A stretch of 64,000 nt of DNA from Paenibacillus swuensis (GTDB lineage Bacteria; Bacillota; Bacilli; Paenibacillales; DY6), in NCBI RefSeq assembly GCF_001644605.1, contig NZ_CP011388.1:1078501-1142500 (forward strand). The letters run 5' to 3'. The notes beneath the pieces were generated by a model that saw nothing but the letters and a program-made list of their open reading frames with translations, was not told the origin of the DNA and did not search any database. The translations under genes and the position numbers were made by a program. Shown here in pieces: positions 1 to 60,390 of this stretch. Each line of letters opens with the position of its first letter. Position 1 is the first letter of the stretch.

Positions 1-248
1 AAAAAGTGATCGGTCTTCCTATGGTCGATTATATAAACTATAGAAGAATCAAGTTGGCGGAGATTTTCCTGGTCACGAGGGATATTTCGGTAGCGCAAAC
101 CGCGCAGGAGGCAGGTATTCCGAATTTGCCTCACTTCATTCAACTGTTCAAACGCTGGAACCAAATGACGCCAAAAGCTTATCAACTGAAAATGAATACG
201 ACCGTCACTATGCAACAAACGATCCGCAGAGAGGAACCTGAACGATGA
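1..248 (+). CDS. AraC-family regulator, C-terminal part (cut by window edge)
   Basis: The frame is open from the first bases and ends at 248, so only about the last 80 residues are visible. They read as the second half of an AraC/XylS helix-turn-helix domain: a DYINYRRIKLAEIFL helix, then the second HTH up to the closing FKRWNQMTPKAYQ, which matches the usual Fkk..G.tP..yR signature. The stop overlaps the start of the next gene (ATGA), so it is probably co-transcribed with the AEC transporter and may control it. The ligand-binding part lies outside the window. The family is clear; the regulated function is inferred from context only. Confidence 0.85.
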   Translation, partial: KVIGLPMVDYINYRRIKLAEIFLVTRDISVAQTAQEAGIPNLPHFIQLFKRWNQMTPKAYQLKMNTTVTMQQTIRREEPER

Positions 249-57529: not shown

Positions 57530-59410
57530 ATGAAGAAATGGCTTATGCTTCTATTGTTAGTAGCATTCATGACGCCCGTTACATCCGTGTTAGCGGAGAC
57601 AAACCAGCGGGTTTACAGCTTCAAAGACGAGATTACAACAGTAAATATTCCTATGAAAAGTATATCTTCATATCGTTTACTGGACAATTATATTGCTTAT
57701 GAGAAAATGGAAGATAATACGACCCACATCTATGTGACCAATTTAAATACCGGAGAAATCAATAAGCTTACTTCAGTCAAGAGTTTTAAGGGTATTCCGG
57801 TATTATCGCAAACACCTCAAGGAATTATGGTCTTATGGTCTGAACAGAGGGGCAGCGAACAAGGAAATTTATTTGCTTATGACATTAAGAGTCAGACAAC
57901 TAAATCTCTGCTTAAAGGAACTTTTTCACAGCTCACGGCGGATGGTTCATTGATTGCCTGGACGAATATGGATACTGGCAATATTCATACTTATGACATA
58001 GTGTCCGGGGTTAATGAAACCATAGCGAAAGGTTCATACCCACAGATTAAAAAAGGAATTATCGTATACAGAAATGACCAAGGGCAACTGACAGTTTACC
58101 TATCGCAAACGAAAGAGACAAAGTTGATCATGAGTAGTCATATTGAGTCTTTTGCATTCACGGGCAGATATATTTTGGTTAGAGAGCGTATTAACCAAAC
58201 AAATTCATTTCAACTTTATGATTTACAAGATTTTAGACAATTCGGAAATAACTTAAATGCAGATGAGAAAGTTCATAAAACTTATCTTTATGCAGATGAC
58301 AGTTTCGGGGTGTGGGTTAAGGAAACGGCTTCCGGCAATGCCGAAGTTACCGGAGCGGATCTGATATTTAGGGGAGTTTTCCCTATCGCTATGAAACCCA
58401 CTCCTGCCAGAAATATACTAGGTATACAAAAGGATGTGCTGTATTTCCTTGATGCTAAAGATAATTTAGTTAAGAGAACGATCATGCCTCCCTCCAACCG
58501 TACCGTCAGGGATGCGGAACCTATCAGTGTAATGATTAACGGTAAGATCGCTGACCTACATCATCCTTCATTGCTCATTAACGAAAATTATTACGTTGAT
58601 GCTGCCGCAGTACTTGAGCAATTAGGATACAAGGTTAACTGGGATAAAGGAATCAATCAGCTTCGCGCTGAAGGGAACGGAAAATCAGTTGTTATTACAG
58701 CGGACCAGAATTCAATTATGGCGGGCAGTGATCGGATACCGCTAGAATCTTCACCTGTGGTCCGTTCTGAAGTATTGTACATTCCAATTGAAGTCATAAA
58801 CCGGATGGGCGATAAGAAAGTTAGCGTAAACAAAGATAAAAGTACGAAGGTGAATACAATTTATATTCGTCCATATGATACAGCAGATACTCTGTATTTC
58901 GAAAACGGCAGGATTAAGTATAAAGGTCAGCTTGCAAACGGAATAAGACAAGGCACAGGTGCCTCGTATAACGAGGAGAACGGCGGCAGGGATTATAACG
59001 GAGAGTGGCTTGCCGATAAAATGCATGGAGAGGGAATCATGTACAGCTGGTCAGGTAAATCAATTTTTTTCAAAGGCAAAATGGAGAATGGACTTCAGTT
59101 GGAAGGGATCGAATACTATCCAGGCACCCAAACTCCTCGTTTTGAAGGTAAGTACAGAAGAGGACTTCCGTGGGAAGGAAGGGGGCTGAATTTATTTCCA
59201 GATGGCACAGCCTTTGCTTATCATTTAAAGAGCGGTGCAAAGAATGGCAATGCTGTACTTTACAATTCCGACGGAACGATCAATCGGTTGTTAGTTTATA
59301 AGAATGACATCGCAATTCAGGGTACATTCTATAAAAATGGTAAAGTTGTGTATAAAGGTATAACGGACGAATATGGTGAACCGATCAGTAAGGTAAATGT
59401 GAAGAAATAA
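57530..59410 (+). CDS. Secreted protein with propeller, copper amine oxidase-N-like and MORN domains
   Basis: 626 residues. Signal peptide 1-22 (WLMLLLLVAFMTPVTSVLAE). Residues about 30-315 form a TolB-like beta-propeller (repeated YVTNLNTGEINKLT and AYDIKSQTTKSL-type strands). About 325-450 is a copper amine oxidase-N-type domain in two halves (INENYYVDAAAVLEQLGYKV, VLYIPIEVINRMG). About 455-600 carries MORN repeats (IKYKGQLANGIRQGTG, RDYNGEWLADKMHGEGIM, RFEGKYRRGLPWEGRG). AAGAAGGG is upstream of ATG 57530. Separated by a terminator from the SLH gene but in the same direction, so it may share its role in the envelope. Function unknown. Confidence 0.8.
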   Translation: MKKWLMLLLLVAFMTPVTSVLAETNQRVYSFKDEITTVNIPMKSISSYRLLDNYIAYEKMEDNTTHIYVTNLNTGEINKLTSVKSFKGIPVLSQTPQGIMVLWSEQRGSEQGNLFAYDIKSQTTKSLLKGTFSQLTADGSLIAWTNMDTGNIHTYDIVSGVNETIAKGSYPQIKKGIIVYRNDQGQLTVYLSQTKETKLIMSSHIESFAFTGRYILVRERINQTNSFQLYDLQDFRQFGNNLNADEKVHKTYLYADDSFGVWVKETASGNAEVTGADLIFRGVFPIAMKPTPARNILGIQKDVLYFLDAKDNLVKRTIMPPSNRTVRDAEPISVMINGKIADLHHPSLLINENYYVDAAAVLEQLGYKVNWDKGINQLRAEGNGKSVVITADQNSIMAGSDRIPLESSPVVRSEVLYIPIEVINRMGDKKVSVNKDKSTKVNTIYIRPYDTADTLYFENGRIKYKGQLANGIRQGTGASYNEENGGRDYNGEWLADKMHGEGIMYSWSGKSIFFKGKMENGLQLEGIEYYPGTQTPRFEGKYRRGLPWEGRGLNLFPDGTAFAYHLKSGAKNGNAVLYNSDGTINRLLVYKNDIAIQGTFYKNGKVVYKGITDEYGEPISKVNVKK

Positions 59411-59633
59411 CGAGTCTGTAAAATACTTTGTGTAAACTCCCAAATCTATAAGATATGTAGATTTGGGAGAGCGCAATGGAATGAAGACAGAGAAGAACGC
59501 TCAAGACTTTTAAAGTGTTAATGACATGTTCCATAAAGACCTTTACTCCCAACAACAGGAAAAAAGCTTGCTTTATAAGCAAACTTAATATATCCTAATT
59601 ATGGAAGTAAACAACCCTAAGGAGGTGAATCGA

Positions 59634-59849
59634 ATGGAACAGATGTGTATGAACATGATGATGAACATGTGTATGGAAGACACCATGAGCAAGATGAAAT
59701 GCATGAAAATGATGATGGACAACATGCAAGAAATGAACATGATGGACAGCATGGACATGGAGATGATGATGTCCAAGATGCAACAGTGTGATGAAATGAT
59801 GACGCAAATGATGACGATGATGAATGGAATGAAGCAATCCACAATGTAA
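59634..59849 (+). CDS. Extremely methionine-rich small protein
   Basis: 71 residues from ATG 59634, with an excellent AAGGAGGTGAATCG site. 32 of 71 residues are Met (45 percent), plus four Cys (5, 13, 23, 52), Asp/Glu, Lys and Gln. The pattern (EQMCMNMMMNMCMED, KMKCMKMMMDNMQE) suits one amphipathic helix or coiled coil and dense soft-metal binding, for example Cu(I). There is no signal peptide. The gene stands alone between a hairpin-rich leader and a terminator. No family recognised. A copper buffer, oxidant sink or spore-associated protein are possibilities, none supported by context. Confidence 0.65.
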   Translation: MEQMCMNMMMNMCMEDTMSKMKCMKMMMDNMQEMNMMDSMDMEMMMSKMQQCDEMMTQMMTMMNGMKQSTM

Positions 59850-59932
59850 AGTCGGAAGCTTTACATCGGGCTGCATAACAGTTCACTGAGTGCAGGAATT
59901 GAGCTTTAGAACTTAATTTATACGTCCTTATT

Positions 59933-59971
59933 GGCGGGTCAAGCAGTCCACTGCATACCGGCCTTTTTTTT
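59933..59971 (+). terminator. Terminator downstream of Met-rich gene
   Basis: GGCGGGT / ACCGGCC outer stem with one mismatch and GCAGT / ACTGC inner stem, then eight T. An additional TGTAAAG / CTTTACA hairpin lies at the end of the gene (59845-59865). Confidence 0.7.
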
Positions 59972-60290
59972 ATTTATACTGTGCCAGTTTCTTCCCTACA
60001 TTAACCCTCTGTACTTTCAAGGCCAGCCATTGTTCCTGTAACTGACGTCCGTGATCTACACTTTTGGGTTGTTTCATATCTTGGAACAGCTCCAACATTT
60101 GTTGGTTAATCCGTGCGTAGGACTCCTGCAGAGCAGCAAGCACCTGACTGACTCTCACTTCGAGCAATATGCTATCGGCATGGTTCAACTTCTCCAGCAA
60201 ACTGTGCTGCCAGACCGTATCCCCGATCGACCCTGCAAAATTATATAAGTCCAAGTAGTCGTTTACCCAAGCCTGCTTCAAGTGATCCAT
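59970..60290 (-). CDS. Small helical protein of unknown function
   Basis: 106 residues from ATG 60290 (AGGAG 8 nt upstream; GTG 60299 is less likely). Mostly alpha-helical and soluble, with a SILLEVRVSQVLAALQESYA helix and a basic end (VQRVNVGKKLAQYK). No domain recognised. It is downstream of proS on the same strand after a 100-bp gap. Could be a cytoplasmic or spore-related accessory protein; no evidence for either. Confidence 0.6.
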   Translation of the reverse strand: MDHLKQAWVNDYLDLYNFAGSIGDTVWQHSLLEKLNHADSILLEVRVSQVLAALQESYARINQQMLELFQDMKQPKSVDHGRQLQEQWLALKVQRVNVGKKLAQYK

Positions 60291-60390
60291 ACAAGCCACT
60301 CCTGTCCATCCAACAATTCGATTTATCTTTATACCAAGTATTATACTCGGAATAGTGAGTTAATCAATACTTTTTTTGTTTTTTGTGAAT

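Follow-up and report, generated by a model that had tools for sequence, protein, structure and literature searches.

The 64,000-nucleotide stretch of Paenibacillus swuensis DNA analysed here (the window) carries a gene for a small methionine-rich (Met-rich) protein and, convergent to it, a second small gene, f0 (Table 1). The preliminary description had reported a 71-residue product with 32 Met (45%) and four Cys, behind an optimal ribosome site and flanked by hairpins, and these points were borne out: the Cys lie at positions 5, 13, 23 and 52, the Shine-Dalgarno match is long and well placed, and RNA folding returned a hairpin upstream and stem-loops downstream. It had also ascribed the His-rich antisense frame to ATG being read as CAT, and we concur. 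Against a background of 3% Met, the occurrence of at least 32 Met in 71 residues has p ~1e-29. An alternative in-frame ATG at 59601 lacks a Shine-Dalgarno sequence like AAGGAGGTGA, and the gene is present in the genome as a single copy. Its expression signals recur among relatives, with Shine-Dalgarno matches of 4–9 nt in 86 of 87 homologues and a promoter-like pattern (TTGnnn-16..18-TAnnyT) in 56 out of the 71 upstream regions left after dereplication, vs. 3.6 in shuffles. A further motif, TATAGTA, occurs in 33 of these 71 regions, usually 12 nt past the TTGnnn box and overlapping the predicted -10. The product of the upstream gene (57530–59410) is predicted to be exported and has MORN-like repeats and a Cu_amine_oxidN1 domain; relatives do not keep this gene next to the Met-rich one.

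Table 1. Features of the Met-rich gene, its partner f0 and their flanks (window coordinates).
Feature	Coordinates	Strand	Remarks
Hairpin, 14 bp, no T-run	59437..59469 (arms 59437-59450 / 59456-59469)	+	RNA fold; interval between upstream gene and Met-rich gene
Sigma-A-like promoter of Met-rich gene, TTGCTT-17-TATCCT	59568..59596	+	Sequence reading
Shine-Dalgarno sequence AAGGAGGTGA	59619..59628	+	10-nt match, 5 nt ahead of Met-rich ATG
Met-rich protein CDS	59634..59849	+	71 aa, 45% Met; C13 and C52-D53-E54 motif
Intergenic stretch, stem-loops and T-rich 3' end	59850..59969	.	Separates convergent Met-rich gene and f0
f0	59970..60290	-	~106 aa from ATG 60290; 109 aa from GTG 60299; four predicted helices
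Palindrome, candidate operator CCGAGTATAATACTTGG	60334..60350	-	Covers f0 -10 box
f0 promoter, TTGATT-16-TATAAT	60340..60367	-	Sigma-A type

Of 395 genomes in the window's order, 113 gave a match to a search profile built from 13 relatives of the Met-rich protein; one locus is from Paenibacillus caseinilyticus, and identities within the family are 60–70%. Further members occur in four other Bacilli from three other families, and a fifth, weak match outside the order (G707) looks spurious. In a phylum-wide sample, matches were confined to the window's order and none lay beyond Bacilli. Viral contigs, phages and plasmids held no match to the Met-rich protein, and a phage or plasmid origin was rejected; f0 has no relative in the viral contigs and phages, and one match in a 2.7-Mb Paenibacillus plasmid. 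Neither protein has a convincing relative in Pfam, NCBIfam, PHROGs, PADLOC or PDB, and no convincing Pfam family match was found for any of the 13 Met-rich members.

The preliminary description had called for a homologue search and regarded a frame not conserved in relatives as grounds for discarding the protein. The search found the family, the frame is conserved, and residues M24, M45, C52, D53 and E54 are unchanged in all 84 non-identical homologues. Codons of the invariant non-Met residues vary freely (e.g., D53 is encoded by 42 GAT and 42 GAC), which rules out a simple ATG-repeat artefact. Purifying selection acts on the non-Met codons (median dN/dS 0.28; pN/pS 0.48 over 40 non-overlapping pairs), and in close pairs the coding sequence is 82–98% conserved vs. 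33–91% for the flanks. A leader peptide or attenuator was rejected because the downstream gene runs the opposite way, towards the Met-rich gene, and because invariance extends to non-Met residues. Two independent in-frame truncations, in different genera (L018, and L162, the same locus as L084), encode forms of 34 and 37 aa that consist of a short Met stretch and the CDE helix, with the ribosome site kept and f0 adjacent. At another locus (L160, 1091–1335), an Rfam match to BsrG, a type I toxin-antitoxin RNA, lies near a Met-rich gene.

Across the family, Met makes up 45.3% and Cys 6.4% of residues (~52% together), His is absent from all 84 homologues as is Trp, and Leu, Ile, Val and Phe jointly account for <1% (Leu 0.15%, Ile 0.18%, Val 0.47%). 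Members carry two to eight Cys, many with a C19-x3-C23 pair, and net charges mostly of -3 to -5. On the tree of f0, Met-majority columns lost Met to Thr, Ser, Ala or Lys in 57 events vs. 13 to Leu, Ile or Val; as six out of nine possible single-base changes in ATG give Leu, Ile or Val, such aliphatic replacements seem to be avoided. AlphaFold2 places two helices at residues 2–33 and 42–69 (pLDDT 83), i.e., a predicted helical hairpin with Met and Cys as nearly its sole non-polar residues, though the packing of the hairpin is uncertain given a pTM of 0.36, and the models of this protein and of f0 rest on shallow alignments of two sequences only. The Met/Cys periodicity of helix 2 is significant (p 0.0004) and makes it amphipathic, helix 1 being weakly so. 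The preliminary description had suggested a special helical assembly as one possibility; a conserved helical protein with Met/Cys stripes is supported. A fold search with the model gave no match. By reading, no signal peptide shape is apparent in the N-terminus (MEKMCMxMMM) of the 84 homologues and, lacking an N-terminal hydrophobic stretch, the protein is presumably cytosolic.

The constant companion of the Met-rich gene is f0. A strong f0 match lies within 2 kb of the Met-rich gene in 108 of its 114 places, convergent in every case; four of the remaining six carry a lower-scoring f0 nearby and one genome (G004) has f0 elsewhere, so that f0 is adjacent and convergent in at least 112 of the 114 places, G240 not being counted among them. 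Other neighbours, their identities largely assigned by reading the sequence, change between lineages (here prolyl-tRNA synthetase beyond f0, elsewhere unrelated genes). In the sampled order, the Met-rich gene never occurs in a genome that lacks f0, but the reverse does not hold, and f0 often remains where the Met-rich gene is lost or decayed. As the Met-rich protein hardly ever occurs without f0 in the sampled genomes, whereas f0 does occur without it, the Met-rich protein looks dependent on f0 and probably acts through it.

The f0 family (~105–120 aa) is predicted to be all helical, with four helices (AlphaFold2 pLDDT 90), and its invariant residues are D14, L16, D17, L18, A22, D27, W30, N65, L94, K95 and R98 (GTG numbering); a fold search with the model gave insignificant helical matches only, mostly to 14-3-3 proteins. 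Relatives of f0 occur in other settings. At two loci of the window's order (L229 and L232), a paralogue lies directly ahead of the binding protein and permease of a cystine-type ABC transporter, and at three loci (L120, L127 and L233) f0 without a Met-rich neighbour is followed by what look like genes for an ECF sigma factor and an anti-sigma factor. Two YgiT-like zinc-ribbon proteins of the window's genome (L175, 1486–1914; L176, 1222–1653) end in a helical hairpin, LDLLxxAKxxxDxxW, that resembles the f0 N-terminus, and free-standing versions of this hairpin, 51–66 aa long, were seen at L226 and L230.

Control of f0 differs between the window's order and more distant Bacilli. Within the order, a near-invariant palindrome with the consensus CCgAGTATAATACTnGG(TAtA) lies over the -10 box of f0. 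Its CCgAGTATAATACTnGG core was present in 149 out of 156 loci with f0, a set with much redundancy (68 distinct sequences) that also takes in loci from other families of Bacilli. The shape of the palindrome recalls Rrf2-family sites. In the window's genome, CCGAGTATAATACTTGG is the sole site with fewer than two mismatches, and a wider regulon was rejected, since weaker sites were no commoner than in a reversed-pattern control.

Outside the order, a SAM-I riboswitch (RF00162, Rfam) leads f0 or its operon in five Bacilli genomes, with E-values of 6e-22 (L115), 8e-22 (L117), 2e-18 (L214), 2e-14 (L217) and 9e-8 (L218); the last three loci came from a class-wide search with f0, whose new loci were then scanned with Rfam. 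Among the loci without the palindrome are L115 and L117, which belong to other families of Bacilli and have the riboswitch in its place. With as few as 5, 14, 18 and 19 SAM-I riboswitches per genome in four of the five genomes, chance placement beside f0 each time is very unlikely. No SAM-I riboswitch was found at f0 in the window's order or in the L215, L216 and genus g65 loci read. In L214 (1574–6001), the riboswitch is followed by ssuE, f0, a permease, a SsuA/TauA-type protein and an ATPase (i.e., ssuE-f0-ssuCAB, of the sulfonate/taurine type), an arrangement that places f0 inside a sulfur-assimilation operon.

In L117, the two genes are still convergent and a hairpin separates f0 from the Met-rich gene; in L115, both genes share a strand, with the Met-rich gene following f0 past an f0 hairpin with a T-run and behind a promoter-like motif of its own (TTGAGT-17-TATACT, by motif reading); and L217 (2979–3300) contains a deletion relic in which a damaged riboswitch and the f0 start are fused out of frame to the tail of a Met-rich gene (...MTSMMAMMREMKEKSR). 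The association thus outlives a change of orientation, and the two genes appear to be separately transcribed.

S-box riboswitches switch genes off when SAM is plentiful. Novel S-box genes are thought to belong to the metabolism or transport of cysteine and methionine (PMC3766115), and together with the logic of the switch this places f0 best in the low-SAM response; in the distant Bacilli, f0 is expected to switch on at low SAM. The RF00162 riboswitches ahead of f0 in five genomes, one of them leading an ssu operon, liken this system to the S-box regulon of Bacillales, from which it differs in that f0 has no named family, a palindrome replaces the riboswitch in the window's order, and the Met-rich gene has an ordinary promoter. 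As the window's own order carries the palindrome and not the riboswitch, the SAM link there is by homology.

We propose, tentatively and at somewhat under even chances, that the two genes make up a module of methionine and sulfur homeostasis, in which the Met-rich protein would be a reserve of Met and Cys released via f0. When methionine is plentiful, the Met-rich protein would be made, banking Met and Cys compactly; when SAM falls, f0 would be made and would bind it, the invariant C-terminal QxCDE helix offering a natural contact; and f0 may then hand the protein to proteolysis or otherwise free the reserve. In favour of such a module we count the near-constant adjacency of f0 among changing neighbours, the apparent dependence of the Met-rich protein on f0, the five riboswitch loci (with the layout of L115 and the relic in L217), the ssu operon, the cystine-transporter paralogue and the truncated forms that keep the CDE helix next to f0. 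Against it we count the palindrome in place of a riboswitch in the window's order, the riboswitch-less f0 loci (L215, L216 and g65) and f0 without a Met-rich partner and, against pure storage, the strictness with which M24, M45 and the CDE motif are fixed (84 of 84 rows), beyond what storage needs. Seed sulfur-storage proteins (Met-rich albumins, zeins) bank Met and Cys in dedicated proteins; they are eukaryotic, unrelated in sequence to the window's protein, lower in Met and without a riboswitch-linked partner.

Alternatively, the Met-rich protein may be a sensor of methionine sufficiency. A message with 45% AUG would need ample Met-tRNA, and its product would inhibit f0 as the low-SAM effector; synthesis would stall first when Met-tRNA is scarce, leaving f0 active in methionine starvation only. 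This idea shares the context evidence of the storage module, and both the dependence of the Met-rich gene on f0 (not the reverse) and the position-specific conservation fit a binding partner. Such a loop would be optional, however, f0 being found also without the Met-rich gene, and we consider this sensor unlikely.

The preliminary description had instead suggested soft-metal binding or an oxidant-absorbing role. Both are chemically possible in a family that has no His and seldom replaces Met by Leu, Ile or Val. A soft-metal buffer in the cytosol would have a helical bundle lined with thioethers of Met and with conserved Cys, and would sequester Cu(I) or Ag(I) in the way of the Csp3 thiolates or of Met/His in SilE; the high Met and Cys content, the conserved C13 and C52, the replacement bias and the predicted hairpin agree with this, and one Met-rich gene (L118) lies near lipoproteins that look metal-related by reading. 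Yet no copper or silver gene was recognised next to the Met-rich gene across lineages, upstream CsoR-, CopY- and Zur-like operators were not enriched (a CueR-like match occurred once), and the near-obligatory linkage to a gene under a SAM riboswitch would be left without a reason. Likeness to the known proteins is also partial. Csp3, with 18–19 Cys, forms four-helix monomers that assemble into tetramers (PMC5171941), and the window's family resembles it in being predicted cytosolic, helical and sulfur-lined, with some CxxxC pairs; but Csp monomers have 13–19 core Cys and four helices against two to eight Cys, ~32 Met and two helices here, and none of the 13 members convincingly matches a Pfam family. 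SilE, encoded in the sil operon, is periplasmic, disordered until Ag+ is bound, and built on His and Met motifs (PMC5008109); it too is small and fits the idea of a Met-based soft-metal sponge, whereas the window's family differs from SilE/PcoE in having no His in 84 homologues and no sil-like context. With no consistent metal neighbour and none of the metal operators clearly enriched, a metal buffer appears distinctly unlikely.

Slightly less probable again is an oxidant sink, in which methionines would be sacrificed to oxidants and then restored by MsrA/MsrB, a scheme proposed for MrpX. The extreme Met content would suit it, as would single neighbours with stress roles in some genomes (e.g., Spx beside the Met-rich gene in L117). 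Against this, no Msr gene was recognised in the 18 contexts read, an OhrR or sigma-B-like site is absent upstream, and an excess of PerR-like sites is marginal (10 vs. 6.5 in shuffles); overall, no metal, peroxide or heat-shock operator upstream of Met-rich genes stood clearly above shuffled background, and no consistent redox neighbour emerged. Nor would a sink need the invariant CDE motif. MrpX of Azospira is periplasmic, MrpX and BcrX scavenge HOCl and are cotranscribed with MsrP/MsrQ-type genes, and the Brucella BcrX system is controlled by an ECF sigma factor (PMC8315932). They share with the window's protein a small size and Met-richness, but the window's family has neither a leader peptide nor an Msr link, and its partner is under SAM control in relatives.

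Very unlikely, in our judgement, is a role as adaptor or chaperone, in which a flexible surface of Met, like that of the SRP54 M domain, would bind helices in f0 or other clients: the Met helix is amphipathic and f0 is predicted all helical, but Leu, Ile and Val, the companions of Met in such surfaces, are almost absent and rarely replace Met. A toxin-antitoxin or defence pair was rejected, as PADLOC gave no match and PHROGs no convincing one, and f0 persists without the Met-rich gene.

A methionine reserve or sufficiency signal thus has the merit of using both the place of f0 in the low-SAM response and the dependence of the Met-rich protein on f0, and the probable role of the pair is in methionine supply, not as a metal or oxidant sponge. 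To our knowledge, no bacterial protein stores methionine or reports methionine supply through its own composition, and searches of the open literature for a Paenibacillus protein rich in Met, for a Met-rich gene under an S-box and for a protein that stores methionine in bacteria returned nothing. We see about an even chance that the Met-rich protein is the first bacterial methionine bank or methionine-sufficiency signal, with f0 as a partner made at low SAM that either controls it or is controlled by it. If so, it would add a protein layer to S-box/SAM control in Bacilli and would explain why a cell makes a protein that is 45% one of its costliest amino acids. Should its role prove to be in metal or redox chemistry instead, the family is still widespread and unnamed, its partner is nearly constant and its regulatory handle is clear, which makes it directly testable.
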